Shown here in pieces: positions 9,746-17,518 of a stretch of DNA of 32,693 nucleotides. The notes under the pieces were generated by a model. That model saw nothing but the letters and a program-made list of their open reading frames with translations. It was not told the origin of the DNA and searched no databases. This DNA is from Candidatus Poribacteria bacterium (GTDB taxonomy: Bacteria > Poribacteria > WGA-4E > PCPOR2b): positions 1 through 32,693 of the forward strand of contig JAGWBT010000053.1 in assembly GCA_021295755.1 (NCBI GenBank). Reading direction: 5' to 3'. Both the position numbers and the translations under genes were made by a program. How positions within the stretch are numbered: position 1 is the first letter of the stretch; each line of letters starts with the position of its first letter.

Positions 9746-10918
9746 ATGGTTAAAACAGCCGATGTAGTCATCATCGGAGGAGGTGCAATCGGCACAAGCC
9801 TTCTATATCATCTAACCGCTAAAGGCGTGCGAAACGTGGTACTCCTAGAAAAAGGGCTACTCTGTGCCGGCTCTACAGGCGATTCGGCGGCAATTATGCG
9901 TCAGCACTACTCCAACGAAGTCAGCATCCGTCTTGTCAAGAAGAGCCTCGAAATCTTCCAGCACTTTCCCGAAATGTTTGATGGAACGGAAGTCCTTCAC
10001 AACGTTGGTTGGTATTTCTTGGTCCCACCGGAGGCTGCCGATATTTTCCATGACAACATGGCACAACTGAAGCGGCTGGGCGTGCGGACATGGGAGGTCT
10101 CATTGGAAGACGCCGCCGAAGCACTACCGGGCTTAAATATGGAAGGCATCGGCTGCGTAGCTCACGAGCCTGATTCTGGCTATGTAGATCCCCACGGCAT
10201 GGTGAGTGCCTTCGCTGCCAAAGCCAAAAGCAATGGCGCGCACGTCTATCTCCAGACCCCAGCCCGTGACATCAAACTGAGTAATGGTCGCGTTTCCACC
10301 GTAGTCACAGATCAGGGTGAGATTAGCACACCCGTTGTCGTCAATGCTGCCGGACCTTGGGCAAAAGCGGTGGGACAGTGGGTAGGGTTAGACCTCCCTC
10401 TCGAAGTTACACGCGAATCAGAAGTCGTCGCTCGAATACCCGCGGATATACCGCCCATGCGCCATTCGGTTTCCAACATGGTAGACCGGACCTACTGGCG
10501 TCCTGAACGGCGTGGGATGCTCCTCATCGGTGTCGGCCACCCCAAAGAGAACGAACTGACGGACCCCGACCAATACTCACGCGACGTTTCCCGCGATTTC
10601 GTTGAGGATGTTTCCCGCCGCCTGAGCCACCGGTTGCCGGCAATGGAAGGGACAATGTTTGTCAAAGGATGGAGCGGTCTCTACACCGTTACTCCTGACT
10701 GGAACATGATCTTGGACAAAAGCCCCGATGTCGAGGGTTTCTACCTTGCCGTAGGCGGCAGTGGGCACTCCTTCAAGATCTCGCCAGCCATTGGGCTATG
10801 TATGGCGGAACTCATCGCAGACGGTGCCGCCAGCACGGTGGACATCACGCCATTGCGAGGGGGGCGTTTCACAGAGCAAACACACCTATCCTCCACCTAC
10901 GGCGGCAACCGTGCCTAA
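9746..10918 (+). CDS. FAD-dependent oxidoreductase, DAO / sarcosine oxidase-like
   Basis: This 390-aa flavoprotein of the D-amino-acid oxidase superfamily starts with VVIIGGGAIGTSLLYHL (residues 7-23), the dinucleotide-binding fold for FAD. The acidic residue at the end of strand 2 is in VVLLEKG, followed by GSTGDSAAIMRQHYS, typical of sarcosine/dimethylglycine oxidase beta-like enzymes. VVVNAAGPWA (about 192-201) and the C-terminal GFYLAVGGSGHSFKISPAIG are the usual second FAD-contacting segments. It probably oxidises a secondary or tertiary amine. The site AAGGAG lies just upstream. It is the second gene of the PhyH operon, which suggests that the dioxygenase and the oxidase act on one N-methylated or related compound. 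That link is inference. Confidence 0.92.
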   Translation: MVKTADVVIIGGGAIGTSLLYHLTAKGVRNVVLLEKGLLCAGSTGDSAAIMRQHYSNEVSIRLVKKSLEIFQHFPEMFDGTEVLHNVGWYFLVPPEAADIFHDNMAQLKRLGVRTWEVSLEDAAEALPGLNMEGIGCVAHEPDSGYVDPHGMVSAFAAKAKSNGAHVYLQTPARDIKLSNGRVSTVVTDQGEISTPVVVNAAGPWAKAVGQWVGLDLPLEVTRESEVVARIPADIPPMRHSVSNMVDRTYWRPERRGMLLIGVGHPKENELTDPDQYSRDVSRDFVEDVSRRLSHRLPAMEGTMFVKGWSGLYTVTPDWNMILDKSPDVEGFYLAVGGSGHSFKISPAIGLCMAELIADGAASTVDITPLRGGRFTEQTHLSSTYGGNRA

Positions 10919-10947
10919 CGACCATCTCTTCCGATCCAGTTTTGCCT

Positions 10948-10961
10948 CCCGATCTATCGGG
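10948..10961 (+). repeat. Palindrome CCCGAT-CT-ATCGGG
   Basis: A perfect 6-bp inverted repeat lies 29 bases after the flavoprotein stop and is followed by GCGGGGCG. It has no T-tract. A similar GC-rich element is at 12106-12140. It may be a dispersed repeat or a transcript-end hairpin. Confidence 0.5.
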
Positions 10962-11043
10962 GCGGGGCGATATGCGTATTATGTTTTTCAGCAAATATCC
11001 ACTTTGGCTAAACTTGAAGTGTTAGAAAACGAGGGAGAAGCGA

Positions 11044-11256
11044 ATGAATACAATAGATACTTTCAAAATAGATAAGGGTGCCCTATCGGTCATATCACTT
11101 TCTGAAGAATCAGACGACAAAGAATATTGGTACGCTAAAACGCCACAGGAACGCCTGGAAGCCGTTGAATTAATGCGGCAGATTAACTATGGCTACGATC
11201 CGACTACCATCCGACTTCAAAGAGTGCTTGAGGTTACTCAACTCACATCAAGTTAA
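11044..11256 (+). CDS. Small protein paired with a nucleotidyltransferase
   Basis: This 70-aa protein contains DDKEYWYAKTPQERLEAVELMRQINYGYDP and RLQRVLEV. It is a small helical protein of a kind often found directly ahead of minimal nucleotidyltransferases. The site GGGAGAAGCGA lies before ATG 11044. Its last 68 bases overlap the start of the nucleotidyltransferase frame at 11189, which points to translational coupling. It may be the partner or regulator of that gene, as in MNT-type toxin-antitoxin modules. The role is inferred from context only. Confidence 0.7.
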   Translation: MNTIDTFKIDKGALSVISLSEESDDKEYWYAKTPQERLEAVELMRQINYGYDPTTIRLQRVLEVTQLTSS

Positions 11257-11639
11257 ATATCTGCTTATCGGTGGATACGCCGTTGGTTATCATGGCTACT
11301 CCCGTGCAACCGGCGATATGGACTTATGGGTGGCAATCCATCAAAATAATGCCGAAAAATTGGTGGATGCCTTGAAAGAATTTGGATTTAATACGCCTCA
11401 GTTATCAGCCAATCTCTTTTTGACAGGGAACCAAGTTATCCGAATCGGTGTTCCTCCGATGCGGATCGAGCTTCTGACAACAATATCAGGTGTCAGTTTT
11501 GATCGCTGCTATTCAGAGCGAATTGTTGATGTTATAGACGATGTCGAGGTTCATATTATCAACCGGGAACACTTGAAACAAAACAAGCAAGCGAGTGAGT
11601 GGAAGGTATAAGGATTTGGATGATTTACAGCATCTTTGA
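11189..11639 (+). pseudogene. Minimal nucleotidyltransferase, C-terminus frameshifted by a 4-bp duplication
   Basis: From ATG 11189 the frame gives FKECLRLLNSHQVKYLLIGGYAVGYHGY, then RATGDMDLWV, the GG(x)AV...HG...DxD signature of MNT-type nucleotidyltransferases. RIELLTTISGVSFDRCY and VHIINREHLKQNKQAS follow. Family members end 'KxxxxGRxKDLxDLxxL'. Here the sequence GAGTGAGT (11593-11600) appears to be a duplicated GAGT that shifts the frame, so the present frame ends early at 11611 (140 aa). Removing one copy gives ASGRYKDLDDLQHL and a stop at 11637-11639. The catalytic region is intact and only the last helix is lost, so some function could remain. The start overlaps the preceding small gene. 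Confidence 0.7.
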
Positions 11640-11706
11640 AAACTTAATTGAGAAGTGTACATAAGTAGATAATGGGTTCGCTCATATCAAAAGAAAGGCC
11701 AGACCA

Positions 11707-11728
11707 GCTCAGAGAAACTGAGTTTTTT
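11707..11728 (+). terminator. Intrinsic terminator after the nucleotidyltransferase gene
   Basis: A perfect 5-bp stem, CTCAG-AGAAA-CTGAG (11708-11722), extended by a G-T pair, is followed by six T residues (11723-11728). It closes the two-gene unit at 11044-11639. Confidence 0.75.
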
Positions 11729-11771
11729 CTTGAAAACTTGGTTTCTTTACACGATTTGTTCACATGAGGGT

Positions 11772-11807
11772 CCGTGTCATCTGAATCATCTGTTTAATCC
11801 GTGATTA
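11772..11807 (+). repeat. 9-bp tandem repeat
   Basis: Four degenerate 9-bp units occur: CCGTGTCAT, CTGAATCAT, CTGTTTAAT, CCGTGATTA. They lie 57 bases ahead of the start at 11865. Confidence 0.55.
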
Positions 11808-11864
11808 AGACAACAGTCATGCACACCCCTCAATTAATGTCGTCTATGAAAAGGAAAAAGAGAA

Positions 11865-12065
11865 ATGTCAAGTATTACAAAAATTCAGCAAGCGATTCTG
11901 TCTCTTCCTGAAGCCGATTACCTTCAATTGAGGCATTGGTTTAATGAATTAGACTGGGAAAAGTGGGATCGGCAGATTGAAGCGGATTCAGAAAGTGGAA
12001 AATTGGATTTCCTGATCGCCGATGCCTTTGAAGCGACAAAAAAGGGTACGCTTAAGGAACTCTAA
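11865..12065 (+). CDS. Antitoxin-like small protein, no toxin gene next to it
   Basis: This 66-aa protein reads ITKIQQAILSLPEADYLQLRHW, then FNELDWEKWDRQIEADSESG, then KLDFLIADAFEATKKGTLKEL. It matches the short helical antitoxin-like proteins, often found ahead of ParE/RelE toxins, with the pattern 'IExAIxxLPxxEYxxLRxWL...DWxxWDxQIExDSxSGKLDFLxxEA...GxLREL'. The site AGGAAAAAGAG precedes the ATG. The next 187 bases, where the toxin should be, hold no ParE-like frame on either strand that I can recognise. It therefore looks like an orphan antitoxin. Confidence 0.65.
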   Translation: MSSITKIQQAILSLPEADYLQLRHWFNELDWEKWDRQIEADSESGKLDFLIADAFEATKKGTLKEL

Positions 12066-12097
12066 AAGAAAATGTAAAGCACGAAAATAATTCGCAG

Positions 12098-12148
12098 GTG
12101 CTTGCAGCCCGACTTATCGGAGGGCGGAACTTCCCCGCCCGTGCTTGC
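12098..12148 (+). repeat. GC-rich hairpin element flanked by GTGCTTGC direct repeats
   Basis: The hairpin GGGCGG-AACTTCC-CCGCCC (12122-12140) is preceded by CCCGACTTATCGG. The whole is bounded by two perfect 8-bp copies of GTGCTTGC (12098-12105 and 12141-12148). It resembles the palindrome at 10948-10961. It lies between the orphan antitoxin and the two-gene unit at 12253. Confidence 0.6.
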
Positions 12149-12252
12149 TAGTATGAGTTGGATGAACTGACTCGTACCAAGTTTTTGTTGCATGATTTCT
12201 TAACATAAATCTTATGGAAAATAGATTGTCAACTCACTAGAAAGTTTCAAAT

Positions 12253-12909
12253 TTGAATCGTACAAGTAACGAAGGCGTAACGCTTTCGGCGGAGCAGCAG
12301 ACAGTCTTTAACTGGCTCAACGACGAACTGGAGCTGCCGGTGTATGCAGAGGCATACAAAGGCGCATTAAATCTCCTAGACAAAAAATCCCCGGGCTACA
12401 TTACATTTGTTTCCCACGCAGGCAGAGATTTGATGAATGGTCTTGCTCGGTTGGGGATCGAACGCGAACAGGTTCAATACGCGAATCGCTTGGATGAGCT
12501 ACAGAACCATTGGGAAGATGAGTGGGGAACAGCAGGAGTTGATAAAATAGATAACCCTGAAAACGGTCATTTAATCCCTTATGAAGTTTGTGAACAAATA
12601 CAAGGCCTGATTGATGAACACAGAGCAGGGCGTCTCCGACCCTCAGAGGCAGCAATCCTTTTCTTTAGTAACTTTTTGGATTATGCCTACGCAGAGGAAA
12701 TCCCCCGGAATCTTTTGACGGAATGGCTGAACACAAGAGAATGGTTTATGGGACATGCCCATCTACGCGATAGCGCGTTTGAAATGGATGCGTCAACTGA
12801 AGTGGAAAGGCATTTTCAGACACTTGATGATTTGCTGTACAACGCTGCAAGCAGTGAACTTGAGCGGATAAGGAGTCTCCATGAAATCTTGGAAGAAACC
12901 AACGAATGA
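12253..12909 (+). CDS. Helical protein of unknown function, first gene of a coupled pair
   Basis: This 218-aa protein has no signal peptide or membrane segment and appears entirely helical. Visible features are PGYITFVSHAGRDLMNGLARLG (47-68), RLDELQNHW (79-87, an R-x6-H spacing), REWFMGHAHLRD (162-173, R-x5-H) and a C-terminal helical pair (ERHFQTLDDLLYNAASSELERI). R-x4-6-H spacing is the catalytic signature of HEPN ribonucleases, but two such matches in a helical protein may be chance. TTG 12253 is the first possible start, because an in-frame TAG lies at 12238-12240. The 3' end overlaps the next gene by 29 bases. I do not recognise a characterised function. A role as small effector or partner of the 981-aa protein is a hypothesis. 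Confidence 0.75.
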   Translation: MNRTSNEGVTLSAEQQTVFNWLNDELELPVYAEAYKGALNLLDKKSPGYITFVSHAGRDLMNGLARLGIEREQVQYANRLDELQNHWEDEWGTAGVDKIDNPENGHLIPYEVCEQIQGLIDEHRAGRLRPSEAAILFFSNFLDYAYAEEIPRNLLTEWLNTREWFMGHAHLRDSAFEMDASTEVERHFQTLDDLLYNAASSELERIRSLHEILEETNE

Positions 12910-15826
12910 AATGATAGATGAGACCCTGAAACTCGTCAAAAAGGGAACCGGCCGTCGATATTTTTTCTCTCGATTGAAAAACCCACTGTGGATACAACCG
13001 CTTGTTGAACGAGGCTATTTTCAGTCACCTCCAAATATTAGATACTTTGATGATGATTATATTCAATTTCCTTCATGGCCCCAACTTCAATACCTCAAGA
13101 ATATATCCCGTGATGTGCCCGATGAAGTTATTAATCTGATATTGGATCTCCCCAAAGTCGATAATCCAAGCGTCTATAATGAGATTTTGGAAATTGCACT
13201 CCAGCTTCACGGTGAACAGTCCGTGAAACTAAAGCCCAAAATACTTGAATCAATAGATATAGACCACCAGTTCTTGCCGCATAGATACGGGGATTTATTA
13301 GCCCACTGGACCGCGGAGAATCAAACATCGGCCGCATTGGAACTTTCAAAAATACTAATTGAATTTGCACCCGACATTCAATCAAAGGCCAAGGAAAAAC
13401 GTCGAAGAAAGAATCCGACAAACTTTGGTACGTTCTACGAGACATCACTTGAACCATCACCCCGGATTGGCATCTTGGAATACAGTGAGATAATGTCCAA
13501 AGGAGTCCGTCCCCTTGCTGAAAAGGAGCCTTACCAAGTTGCCCGCCTCCTTATTGATGCCACAGCGAATGTGATTCGTTTACGAACGCATCGGCAGGAT
13601 TTTAATCAAGGGGTAGACAACTCCGAGGCATGGTGTGAGCGGCTTCAAGGATTGGATGCCGGCTACGAAGATCCCGATAAAACGCTCGTGTATACCCTGA
13701 CCTTTGCTTGTGAGCAGGTTTACAAAAAATCTCCTGATTCGGTTGTGGCTTTGGACAAAGTTCTGCGGAATCAACAGTGGGAAATTTTCAAACGCTTGCG
13801 CCAGCACCTATATGCCCAATACCCAAACGAACAAACCAAATCGTGGATTCGGGAATCAATTCTAGGGCATGAAGGTTACGATCGGCGGGAACATCATTAC
13901 GAATTCCAGCGGATGATACGGAGAGCCTGTGAGTACTTTGGCACCTCATTACTTACTGAAGCGGAGCGTGTGCCAATCTTTGATGCCATCCGGAGCGGTC
14001 CATCGAAAGCCAATTATCAAGCATGGCTGGGTAAGGAATTCACCGAGGAGAGGTTTCAGCAATTTCAACGCGCTTTCCATGGAAAGCAATCCAAACCCTT
14101 TGAACCTCTACTATTTGGTGAATATGCAACCTACTTTCGAGAGTTGGAAGATAAAACCACCGATCCAATTTCTGATGAGGATTATCCACCAGTTGAAACA
14201 ATGGGCGGAGCTGTGTCTAATCGTAGTCCACTCTCACTTGAAGACCTTGAAAAACTCACAGATGAGGAATTACTCGCTGCCATAAAAGAATGGGAGAAAC
14301 AAGGTGGGCATGTAGATTTCGCTATTGAAGGTCTCGCCAATACATTTCAAACCTTTTTCAAAGAGACGATTATCCCGTCTGCTAGTAGACTCCGGTTCTG
14401 GCTGGATAATCTCAAAGGGATGCACCCTATATACGTGCGGGCGATGATTGAGGGAATGCGGTTGCGCGTGAAGGGAAAGAACTTTGACAACCTGAACGAG
14501 TGCTTGACATCTAGTGAGTGGACACTTTCACATACAAATCAAGACAAATATAGAATTGACGACGAATCTCGAGAGAATCGTGAATGGTATAGTTTACGAG
14601 AAATAGTCCTAGGCTTTATCAATACATGTCTGGAAAAGGAGGTGAACGTACCGGTTGAAGCTCGGGAGCGACTTGCCAAGCTTCTAAAAATGCTTTGCAC
14701 ACAATACGATCGGCATTTGGATCAGCAGGAGGAAGACCTTTTGAACCGAAACGACCTAATTGATGAAGCTATCAACAATACGCGGGGGCGGGCACTAGAG
14801 GCACTGCTCCAATTCGGTTTCTGGTTACGGCGGCACGATTCGGATTCCGAAGTCTCCGAGGTAACGATGATTCTTGAAAAACGCTTCGTCCCGGAAGTTG
14901 AGCGTCCTTTGACGTTGCCGGAATATGCTATTCTAGGTAGAGACTATCGTGCGATTTTTAGTCTCAATAAGGTATGGGCAATAAAGCATAAATCAGACCT
15001 TTTCCCACAGGACAAGTTGCCTGCATGGCTAGCAGCTTTTAGCAGTTTTTTACACTATAATCCCCCTTTCGAGCGCATCTGTGAAATCTTTCAAGACGAC
15101 TTCGATTTTGCGCTGCAATATCTAGCTGACTCAAAAAAACGAGATACTTCCGATGAAAAACAGACGAATATTTTTGGGCGTCACCTGAAGCAAAATAGTC
15201 CCGAGGAAAAACTTGCAGAGGGACTCGGTCGTCACCTGTTCACCTACTATTTGTGGGGGATATATCCACTCAGAGAATCGGTAGAGAACAACGAGCAATG
15301 TTCCCTGCTTGAACGATATTACCAAGCGACTGATAACAACCGAGATCGCTGGGCGAATTTGTTCAACTATGTTGGTCGTATCTTGCGGAGTACAAGTGAG
15401 CAGCTGGATAAGGACCTGAAAGATAGAACCATTGCCTTCTTTGATTGGCGTCTTGAAGTGGGTGAACCAAGGGAACTTCAACACTTCACCTTCTGGCTGA
15501 AAGCCAAGTGCCTAGATGCTGAGTGGCGGTTGGATGCCTACTCCAAGGTTCTGGATGTCTGCAAGGTAGAAGGTGTCTCAATCGCTATGCAGGTGGAAAC
15601 TTTGTGTGAACTACTCCCAAACCACACCGCGAAGGTGCTTGAATGCTTCGCCAAGCTGACCGATAGAAGTGGCGATAACAATATCTACATTCGGACGGAG
15701 GAAGCAAAAACCATACTAAGGGCAGGCTTCAAAAGCAGTGACGAAAGCGTGCGTCAGAATGCAGAACGCGCCCACGAAAACCTACTCCGTGAGAGCAGAT
15801 TTGATTTATTAGATCTGGACGATTGA
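12881..15826 (+). CDS. Large helical-solenoid protein of unknown function, second gene of a coupled pair
   Basis: This 981-aa protein has no P-loop, signal peptide or membrane segment. It reads as a long alpha-helical solenoid throughout. Notable segments are YFFSRLKNPLWIQPLVERGYF near the N-terminus, NTRGRALEALLQFGFWLRR (about 634-652), PLTLPEYAILGRDYRAI, and a C-terminal part with RWANLFNYVGRILRS and FFDWRLEVGEPRELQHFTFWL. These last segments recall the C-terminal helical sensor-like region of large STAND NTPases of the AVAST/Avs type, but the NTPase and effector domains are absent. That resemblance is from memory and unchecked. The strong site AAGGAG (about 12868-12873) fixes the start inside the upstream gene, which implies translational coupling. 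The pair lies in an accessory island with toxin-antitoxin remnants. Confidence 0.8.
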   Translation: MKSWKKPTNEMIDETLKLVKKGTGRRYFFSRLKNPLWIQPLVERGYFQSPPNIRYFDDDYIQFPSWPQLQYLKNISRDVPDEVINLILDLPKVDNPSVYNEILEIALQLHGEQSVKLKPKILESIDIDHQFLPHRYGDLLAHWTAENQTSAALELSKILIEFAPDIQSKAKEKRRRKNPTNFGTFYETSLEPSPRIGILEYSEIMSKGVRPLAEKEPYQVARLLIDATANVIRLRTHRQDFNQGVDNSEAWCERLQGLDAGYEDPDKTLVYTLTFACEQVYKKSPDSVVALDKVLRNQQWEIFKRLRQHLYAQYPNEQTKSWIRESILGHEGYDRREHHYEFQRMIRRACEYFGTSLLTEAERVPIFDAIRSGPSKANYQAWLGKEFTEERFQQFQRAFHGKQSKPFEPLLFGEYATYFRELEDKTTDPISDEDYPPVETMGGAVSNRSPLSLEDLEKLTDEELLAAIKEWEKQGGHVDFAIEGLANTFQTFFKETIIPSASRLRFWLDNLKGMHPIYVRAMIEGMRLRVKGKNFDNLNECLTSSEWTLSHTNQDKYRIDDESRENREWYSLREIVLGFINTCLEKEVNVPVEARERLAKLLKMLCTQYDRHLDQQEEDLLNRNDLIDEAINNTRGRALEALLQFGFWLRRHDSDSEVSEVTMILEKRFVPEVERPLTLPEYAILGRDYRAIFSLNKVWAIKHKSDLFPQDKLPAWLAAFSSFLHYNPPFERICEIFQDDFDFALQYLADSKKRDTSDEKQTNIFGRHLKQNSPEEKLAEGLGRHLFTYYLWGIYPLRESVENNEQCSLLERYYQATDNNRDRWANLFNYVGRILRSTSEQLDKDLKDRTIAFFDWRLEVGEPRELQHFTFWLKAKCLDAEWRLDAYSKVLDVCKVEGVSIAMQVETLCELLPNHTAKVLECFAKLTDRSGDNNIYIRTEEAKTILRAGFKSSDESVRQNAERAHENLLRESRFDLLDLDD

Positions 15827-15895
15827 GGATGCCCTACAAAAGACGACTGAATATCTGGACAGACTGAATAAGCAAAGCCACTCCACTAGCCTAAC

Positions 15896-17518
15896 ATGCT
15901 CATAAAACGCTATCAAACCTGGATCCTCGCCGGCATATCCGGCATCCTACTCATCCTCAGCTTCCCAAGTTTCAACCTCTACCCGCTTGCGTGGATCAGC
16001 CTTATCCCCCTACTGATCGCCCTACAATCCACGTCCACTTGGAAATCCGCCTTTCTACACGGCTACCTCACCGGCGCGATCTTCTTCCTCGGACTGATCT
16101 ACTGGATCGCCCTGCTCTATCCCTTCGCAAACATCTTCCTCACCACATTCGCCTGCCTACTGCTAGCTGGTTATCTCGCAGTGTACTTCGGTATCTTTTC
16201 CGTGCTGCTACATGGACTGCCGTGGAAATCCGGTCTGCCCTTTATCTTCACCGTATCTACAATCTGGATAGGATTAGAATGGGTGTGCAGCTGGTTTCTG
16301 ACAGGTTTCCCATGGGGCAGCATGGGCTATACACAATGGAACAACCTGCCAGCAATCCAGATCGCATCAATCACAGGCGTGCACGGTGTCAGTTTCATCG
16401 TTGTCCTCCTCAACACCACAATCGCAGATATAATCCACACCCATTTCATATCAAAAAACCAATCAACTACCTCTAAAACCTCAGTCGCAGCAACTAAGGG
16501 AAAAGCCTTTGTCTCGTCCTTATTACGTTTCACGCATCACGCATCACGCTTCATTCCCATCGTGATTGTCATCGCCTGCCTTATCTACGGTGCACAAGTG
16601 TTATCCAAGCCCATTAAGACCGCCTCAGATGTTAAAATTGCCCTTGTACCGGGAAACGTCCCGCAGATCGAAAAGTGGGATCGGGCATACTGGTCCCAAA
16701 TCTTCGAGAGATATATGAATCTGGTAAAAGCAGCAGACACCGAAGAACCCGATCTCATTATCCTACCCGAAACCGCCCTGCGTGGTGAAATCTTCGTTTT
16801 GGAAGGGAATGTCTACCTCCCAAGATTGAAACAGATTTTAGAAGAACAGCAGATATACCTACTCACAGGACTGGCTGACTACACAGCCGCACCGAAAATA
16901 TATAACAGCGTGCATCTGCTATCCCCAACCGGTGAAAAACTTGGTAGCTACTCCAAGATGCACCTTGTCCCCTTTGGAGAGTACGTCCCGATCACCCGTC
17001 ACCTCCCCAACTTTATCCAACTACCCACCGGATTTGAGGCAGGCAAGTCAATTGATCTCTTCCCAATCCCCAATTCTGAAAATCGCCAGATGGGAGCTGT
17101 TATCTGCTTTGAATCCGTGTTCCCAGATCTGTTCCGCAAATTCGTTAAGAAAGGGGCTTCCGTGATGGGAATCCTTACCAACGATGCGTGGTTCGACGGA
17201 ACAGCAGCCCCAGAACAGCATCTTGCCATGGCACCCTTCCGCGCTGTCGAGAACCGTGTAGCTGTTTTCCGTTGCGCCAACGGCGGTATATCGTGTATAA
17301 TTGATGCGCTCGGCAGGACAACCGCGCCGCCGATCCAAGCTAATGATACAGAAAACTTCCTAGTAGCGAGGATTCCATTAAGCAATCACGGGGGAACCGT
17401 TTATACGCGCTACGGCGATTGGTTCCCGATTCTGTGTTTCCTTGTGAGCGGACTCATAATTCTCTATCATCATCGAACTTGGATCGCCGCCAAGCTCAGG
17501 CGGGACGATACCACGTAG
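15896..17518 (+). CDS. lnt: Apolipoprotein N-acyltransferase Lnt
   Basis: Lnt adds the third acyl chain to lipoproteins in the inner membrane. The 540-aa protein starts with several hydrophobic helices (about residues 9-45, 55-105, 112-138 and 160-180). A last membrane helix at 220-233 precedes a C-N hydrolase-fold domain. The catalytic triad is visible as E292 in ILPETALRGEI, K354 in SYSKMHLVPFGEYVP and C404 in GAVICFESVFP. A final hydrophobic segment (WFPILCFLVSGLIILYHH) closes the protein. It is slightly longer than E. coli Lnt (512). The extra length includes a low-complexity loop (about 185-219) that contains a heptamer DNA repeat. No strong ribosome-binding site is seen before the ATG. 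Confidence 0.96.
   Translation: MLIKRYQTWILAGISGILLILSFPSFNLYPLAWISLIPLLIALQSTSTWKSAFLHGYLTGAIFFLGLIYWIALLYPFANIFLTTFACLLLAGYLAVYFGIFSVLLHGLPWKSGLPFIFTVSTIWIGLEWVCSWFLTGFPWGSMGYTQWNNLPAIQIASITGVHGVSFIVVLLNTTIADIIHTHFISKNQSTTSKTSVAATKGKAFVSSLLRFTHHASRFIPIVIVIACLIYGAQVLSKPIKTASDVKIALVPGNVPQIEKWDRAYWSQIFERYMNLVKAADTEEPDLIILPETALRGEIFVLEGNVYLPRLKQILEEQQIYLLTGLADYTAAPKIYNSVHLLSPTGEKLGSYSKMHLVPFGEYVPITRHLPNFIQLPTGFEAGKSIDLFPIPNSENRQMGAVICFESVFPDLFRKFVKKGASVMGILTNDAWFDGTAAPEQHLAMAPFRAVENRVAVFRCANGGISCIIDALGRTTAPPIQANDTENFLVARIPLSNHGGTVYTRYGDWFPILCFLVSGLIILYHHRTWIAAKLRRDDTT
16528..16555 (+). repeat. 7-bp tandem repeat inside lnt
   Basis: Units are TTTCACG, CATCACG, CATCACG, CTTCATT, the same heptamer family as 5555-5582. 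They encode the FTHHASRF part of a loop before the last N-terminal-domain membrane helix. The lnt frame stays open across it. Confidence 0.75.

Follow-up and report, generated by a model that had tools for sequence, protein, structure and literature searches.

A stand-alone DSR1-type sensor gene and a small helical partner form a conserved two-gene module, a candidate immune system often found beside restriction-modification genes

The window analyzed here, a stretch of 32,693 nucleotides (nt) on the forward strand of contig JAGWBT010000053.1 from a Candidatus Poribacteria bacterium (assembly GCA_021295755.1; 5.03 Mb in 257 contigs), carries two overlapping genes, designated S and B, that encode proteins of 218 and 981 amino acids (aa), respectively (Table 1). 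A first-pass annotation of this DNA had described them as a coupled pair of helical proteins, with the second gene starting inside the first behind an AAGGAG site, and on all of these points both open reading frames (ORFs) and the AlphaFold models of their products agree with it. The 29-nt overlap recurs in 19 of the 20 non-redundant loci having a separate S gene, as judged by coordinates (L011 is the exception; in L074 the overlap was measured from the start of the B match), and AAGGAG is exact in 10 of the 16 S/B junctions compared. S and B are probably translationally coupled, with one message for both proteins; a promoter scan found sites no more numerous than in shuffled sequence (7 vs 7.8). 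Compared with the same-genus copy L004, NG86 estimates of nonsynonymous and synonymous divergence (dN/dS) are 0.124/0.536 for S and 0.206/0.641 for B. Both genes look to be under purifying selection, with B evolving faster than S in both comparisons made.

Table 1. Features of the S-B gene pair (window coordinates)
Feature	Position	Strand	Basis and remarks
Gene S, 218-aa all-helical partner, TTG start	12253..12909	+	ORF reading; in SIR2's position of DSR1; candidate effector
Gene B, 981 aa, ATG start, HEAT-like alpha-solenoid, putative DSR1-type sensor region	12881..15826	+	ORF reading, PADLOC, hhalign, AlphaFold
AAGGAG within S, likely ribosome-binding site of B	12870..12875	+	Five bases before B's ATG
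S/B overlap, 29 nt	12881..12909	+	ORF coordinates; junction comparison
Codons of S motif H-x-x-R-[DE] (residues 55-59, HAGRD)	12415..12429	+	Alignment of 18 S proteins
Codons of S residues 170-172 (HLR)	12760..12768	+	H170 in 18/18 aligned S proteins

B matches the PADLOC Dsr1 model with an expectation value (E) of 1.7e-24, the best stretch covering only residues 444-739, and four of its relatives match the same model at E from 1e-16 to 5.5e-26. Alignment of the B family with Dsr1-type sensors by hhalign (a set of five C55-type proteins and the Vibrio sensor, both described below) joined B-family columns 15-971 to positions 9-928, nearly end to end (99.4% probability, E=5.6e-22, 18% identity). 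The same genome holds a second B copy on contig C55 (L014:6450-9863, 1137 aa), which matches positions 308-1225 of the 1227 in Dsr1 at E=6.8e-260 and has ~200 residues of another domain in the position of SIR2. Because of the PADLOC match, the match of this paralogue and the end-to-end profile alignment, we consider that B is, on its homology, a diverged DSR1-type sensor region that stands alone; the match of the large protein is to a defence family and not to a non-defence one. Searches of Pfam, PADLOC and NCBIfam found no SIR2 match in S or B, and the same Pfam search detects SIR2_2 in the small gene of the Vibrio pair. Since SIR2 was looked for and is absent, S-B is best classed as a variant of the DSR1 kind and not as a DSR1 member: the C-terminal sensor region of DSR1 is homologous to B over almost its full length, but DSR1 is a single polypeptide with a SIR2 domain, whereas S-B comprises two genes, a 218-aa helical partner and a diverged sensor. 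In DSR2, a phage tail tube protein switches on the NADase activity of SIR2, from which the helical C-terminal domain becomes decoupled (PMC10973363). The C-termini of DSR1 and DSR2 show limited sequence homology (PMC10973363), so the same trigger cannot be assumed for B.

The AlphaFold model of B is an almost all-helical solenoid (mean predicted local distance difference test score, pLDDT, 76.7; predicted template modeling score, pTM, 0.50; residues 1-65 below a pLDDT of 50). Two fold searches with this model returned generic HEAT/ARM solenoids, with neither DSR1 nor DSR2 chains among the best 50 rows of either. Sequence searches of the PDB gave nothing significant, and B has no Pfam family and no NCBIfam match of significance. 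A Walker A pattern ([GA]x4GK[ST]) is absent from the window's B, a Walker-A-like string in the L004 protein appears to be a chance occurrence (it is absent from the other ten aligned rows), and no NTPase family scores above the Pfam cut-off in S or B. The earlier statement that the large protein lacks a P-loop and a recognizable enzyme domain is thus confirmed, whereas its suggested likeness to the sensor region of AVAST/STAND NTPases is not: the C-terminal alpha-solenoid of those proteins may be of a similar general kind, but the NTPase was not found, the sequence homology is to the DSR1 sensor, and Avs4 (chain 8dgf_B; Z 9.5, root-mean-square deviation (rmsd) 15.5, 631 aligned) is tied with many unrelated alpha-solenoids. 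Membership of B in AVAST/STAND was rejected for lack of the NTPase.

A scan of 84,980 species genomes recovered B relatives at 10 loci in Poribacteria, Nitrospirales, Gammaproteobacteria and Latescibacterota, with best segments 44-64% identical; the closest named relative (64%) is from a Poribacteria metagenome-assembled genome. An S gene lies directly upstream of B in nine of these loci, whereas at the remaining locus, L012, an N-terminal domain joined to B makes a single protein of 1188 aa, within the range of the fused forms (1180-1215 aa). Whole-genome profile searches covered the 84 genomes of one phylum. The B profile found some match in 45 of them, the strong ones amounting to 27 places (26 if two G049 fragments are counted as one; a diverged G006 pair is not included), and S was present in 18, adjoining B in 17 and lying at a contig end in the remaining one. 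The full set comprised 32 non-redundant loci from 34 rows, after L018 was dropped as a duplicate of L008 and L033 was merged with L013, the two apparently being one gene on two contigs of one genome; S or the fused domain is present at 28 of the 30 B loci with readable upstream sequence, the other two being L062 and L063 (see below). The co-occurrence of the two genes holds across phyla; the two-gene system is real and conserved. In a tree of 26 B proteins, starred branches require three or more switches between the separate and the fused form, indicating that partner and sensor were joined or parted more than once. Viral contigs and plasmids each yielded one distant B match (partial in the viral case) and none for S, and phage records, searched with B, yielded none. 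At one further locus (L065:4286-7901), S and B are both broken by frame changes and a gene recognized by eye as pyruvate phosphate dikinase-like lies downstream.

S has no significant match in Pfam, PADLOC or NCBIfam, and its AlphaFold model is all-helical (mean pLDDT 71.8, pTM 0.65). S proteins share the motif H-x-x-R-[DE], with H55 and R58 in all 18 of those aligned and D59 in 17. The domains occupying the N-terminal position were compared as three groups, namely A2 (the S proteins), A3 (the domain fused to relatives of B) and A4 (the N-terminal domain of C55-type proteins). Profile comparison joins A2 to A3 (hhalign, E=5.5e-5, Prob 66) and A3 to A4 (E=7.9e-5, Prob 61), and a by-eye line-up across all three shows a similar motif, H-x-x-R-[DE] followed by [AV]H near the end, although one A3 row has Q in place of H. 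The S of L074, a diverged one encoded next to a type I restriction-modification (RM) methylase gene, has an intermediate motif. The predicted pPIWI-associating nuclease family PF18165 (pP_pnuc_1), a name not found in the open-licence PMC literature searched, is matched by 7/7 fused A3 domains at E<=0.1 (best 1.8e-8), and the L012 domain exceeds the curated cut-off (33.7 vs 26.3 bits). In contrast, none of the 10 S members scanned matches it, nor does anything in the window's own genome; it scores above cut-off in two of the 84 phylum genomes, and four of six genomic matches span only ~33 residues. Two more hits of the S profile, in ~790-aa proteins (E 0.007-0.008), were dropped as chance; the protein has NACHT/STAND-type NTPase matches.

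For the chemistry of S, the best guess is a HEPN-like ribonuclease (RNase). Among VIA matches, the S model aligns with the HEPN toxin 8yuf_A (Z 7.3, rmsd 4.4, 121 aligned), with 2hsb (Z 6.5, rmsd 3.6, 108 aligned), and with Csm6' 8pe3_A (Z 6.4, rmsd 5.2, 129 aligned) and Las1 7y16_A (Z 6.2, rmsd 6.5, 126 aligned), the last two being HEPN proteins as well. By-eye counts in the 18 aligned S proteins place the classical HEPN motif Rx4-6H in 12, as R162-x5-H168 in 11 of them and as Rx4H in L009, and [RK]x5H in 13. Because the top VIA row is a de novo design (Z 7.7), such Z values are common among helical bundles, and Rx4-6H is not invariant, unlike H55, R58 and H170, this is a lead and not a finding. 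Foldseek gave no match for S at E<=0.001 in PDB or BFVD, and HEPN families of Pfam matched none of the 10 S members scanned at E<=10, an absence that carries little weight given how highly diverged these families are. The literature describes variants of HEPN whose motifs are altered, the 2hsb family among them (PMC3710099).

Other DSR1-type sensors carry other partners in the same position. On Vibrio coralliilyticus plasmid NZ_CP009266.1 (L045:4016-7757), a 306-aa SIR2 gene overlaps a 942-aa sensor gene; the former matches Dsr1 5-301 (E=1.6e-58) and the latter Dsr1 311-1213 (E=5.6e-113). By these matches the pair is a split DSR1 laid out like S-B, with a small gene for the N-terminal partner overlapping the gene of a sensor that stands alone, but its partner is SIR2 and the annotation of this stretch mentions no RM gene. 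The proposal that a stand-alone sensor with a small separate effector would be a new arrangement is softened by this pair, which is annotated as 'SIR2 family protein' and 'hypothetical protein'. A Natronorubrum bangense plasmid (L047:2027-6559) encodes a 1510-aa protein annotated as ATP-binding that has a DSR1 sensor region (Dsr1 E=8.8e-37); its N-terminus contains a GDGGVGKS string and has only weak NTPase family matches. Three further haloarchaeal plasmid matches are annotated as ATP-binding or AAA proteins.

Same-strand RM genes adjoin the pair in 19 of the 32 non-redundant loci. The tally was built on tblastn matches (E<=1e-20) to nine RM query proteins and could miss other RM or defence genes, and flanking sequence is short at L021, L035, L036 and L052. 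Type III mod and/or res account for 15 of the 19, type I for two (L009, where HsdS overlaps S by 4 nt, and L074) and type IIG for two (L010 and L011); at L005 a type IIG gene lies on the opposite strand. Eleven of the 15 type III loci have the order mod - S - B (or fused protein) - res, some of them with additional genes separating mod from S, and in seven loci res starts 33-36 nt after B. Across the phylum, a type III res lies within 1 kb of 13 of the 27 B places, compared with 0.03 expected at random placement, an expectation that disregards any general clustering of defence genes. At L053:9601-12000, outside this tally, an ORF resembling a DNA methylase (by eye) lies ~1.5 kb upstream of a fused B.

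We consider it slightly better than an even chance that the two genes make up an immune module, in which B would sense infection and S would be an effector that B silences and that is released or activated on sensing. One message would yield S and B together, and B, as a free-standing DSR1-type alpha-solenoid, would keep S silent. A phage product, or the failure or loss of a neighbouring RM enzyme, would then change B such that S is freed or activated, and active S would stop growth or destroy a cell component. In many relatives the module lies in an RM cluster and may be a second line of defence behind restriction; the window copy is a solitary version at a variable chromosomal site. The reading draws on the co-conservation and overlap of S and B, the homology of B to the DSR1 sensor, the lack of SIR2 and P-loop, the variety of partners and the RM linkage in relatives, all of which the sequences show. 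A sensor with a separate partner, as the first-pass annotation proposed, is thus the best and a broadly supported reading, while the assignment of S as the effector is less firm. There is a precedent in PrrC, which is kept silent by the type I enzyme PrrI and released when phage T4 blocks restriction (PMC3710099, PMC2610378). Like PrrC and other RM-embedded HEPN RNases, the S-B family may supply a second-line effector inside restriction clusters (PMC3710099); unlike PrrC, S-B has no ABC ATPase, its sensor is a solenoid, S is only putatively HEPN and the window copy has no RM neighbour.

In the portion of the literature surveyed, the DSR1 sensor region is described together with SIR2. A family with the sensor alone and a separate partner in the SIR2 position, recurring in restriction clusters, would mean that sensing is genetically separated from response. 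S-B also predicts a new effector type, S, and makes the guarding of restriction systems by a solenoid receptor testable, much as PrrC is paired with PrrI. The pair is not named in PADLOC or NCBIfam and was not found in the open-licence PMC literature searched, as far as its accessible portions go, which is no proof that it is unpublished. A wider proposal, which we hold to be speculative and rather doubtful, is that DSR1-type solenoids are a general plug-in sensor, a single receptor family working with SIR2, with P-loop NTPases, with PIN nucleases and with a small helical effector of a new type, with S-B as a portable fail-safe in type I, IIG and III clusters that triggers S when a phage evades or inhibits restriction.

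Several observations weigh against an immune module with S as its effector. At L063, B is intact without S, of which 36 codons are left, and at L062, S is missing and B is interrupted by a stop. A 340-aa ORF directly upstream of the interrupted B (L062:5071-6093) resembles IscB-type/RRXRR proteins. No Pfam family is common to more than two of the 10 S proteins scanned, even at E up to 10, and the direct A2-A4 profile similarity is below significance (E=0.017, Prob 2.7). The window copy has no adjoining RM gene of the types searched. The linkage in relatives may partly reflect the general clustering of defence genes; the comparison with random placement concerned type III res only, and the count of 19 loci is without a matched control. 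DSR1 has been reported to inhibit phage without killing the cell (PMC10952713), and cell death is for this reason not a safe prediction for S-B.

The C55-type proteins raise a further difficulty, in that their N-terminal domain is at best a distant relative of S. In five loci (L014:6450-10396, L066, L075, L076 and L077) a DSR1-type sensor with this other domain in SIR2's place has a PIN-family gene directly downstream, as observed in 5/5 loci examined and confirmed as Pfam PIN_4 for two; this sensor seems here to be paired with an effector in yet another way. Because of this distance and this gene order, the S-type helical domain may be an adaptor, with another protein as the effector. The S-type domain would in that case connect the sensor with an enzyme encoded elsewhere in the locus, for example the RM endonuclease where RM genes adjoin or the PIN nuclease in C55-type loci. 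We regard this as the main alternative, though a minority one: the PIN gene order, the short spacing between B and res and the lack of a recognized catalytic family for S are in its favour, but the N-terminal partner in the Vibrio pair, SIR2, is an effector of a known kind, and the window and L004 pairs have no adjoining RM gene of the types searched nor a gene of this PIN family, yet are conserved with dN well below dS.

It is improbable, in our view, that S-B is an accessory that modulates an RM enzyme with no immune output of its own, its solitary copies being relics. The same-strand RM genes at 19 loci are in favour of such a role, but they belong to three RM types, which favours a portable module over a subunit. 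Moreover, the phylum contains 67 type III res places (70 rows before split ones were joined), so most type III systems are without the S-B module: 54 of the places have no B within 1 kb, although some of these are fragments or lie close to the end of a contig. The two solitary copies, that of the window and that of L004, are also intact and conserved.

The setting of the pair in the genus bears on the solitary copy. In the window, S-B lies between an oxidoreductase gene (9746-10918) and lnt (15896-17518), with release-factor and lysine-tRNA ligase genes, recognized by eye, also downstream; the neighbourhood of homologues is a mixed one, with RM genes beside many and housekeeping genes beside some, including this one. 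The interval 10918-15896 varies across the genus (counterpart loci L089, L090, L091 and L093). Among sister genomes, G019 and G021 carry before lnt a nucleotidyltransferase-like remnant and short ORFs with neither S nor B, G018 a homologue of the DUF3800 gene, G022 S-B with other genes upstream, and G020 type III res and mod, DUF3800 and then 39-45 codons of B. The interval looks like a turnover site, one that ties the solitary window copy to the RM-linked form.

Presence and absence at a variable site, together with the strict S/B overlap, would also suit a toxin-antitoxin pair in which B is a giant neutralizer of S, kept as an addiction module and not for sensing. This is more improbable still, as B is homologous over nearly its whole length to a sensor region from phage defence, evolves faster than S in both comparisons made, and occurs in fused single-polypeptide forms. 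We consider it very improbable that the insertion in the window is decaying or of no relevance and that S-B plays no part in defence, since, against the housekeeping genes downstream and the one sister genome retaining only a B remnant, the ORFs are intact, dN is well below dS, and RM linkage in relatives is strong.

The remaining claims about the surroundings were only partly borne out. Of the repeat elements said to adjoin the pair there is weak evidence, 12075-12180 having one further partial match in its own genome (28 bases, 93%). A 66-aa ORF (11865-12065) resembles an addiction-module antitoxin, with no family match in Pfam or NCBIfam. As for toxin-antitoxin remnants, there is a nucleotidyltransferase-like ORF (11189-11611) with weak family matches, and sister genomes have damaged or truncated copies of it in the corresponding place: a frameshifted one at L091 (92-95% identical), a shorter one at L090 (82%) and 18 residues at L093.

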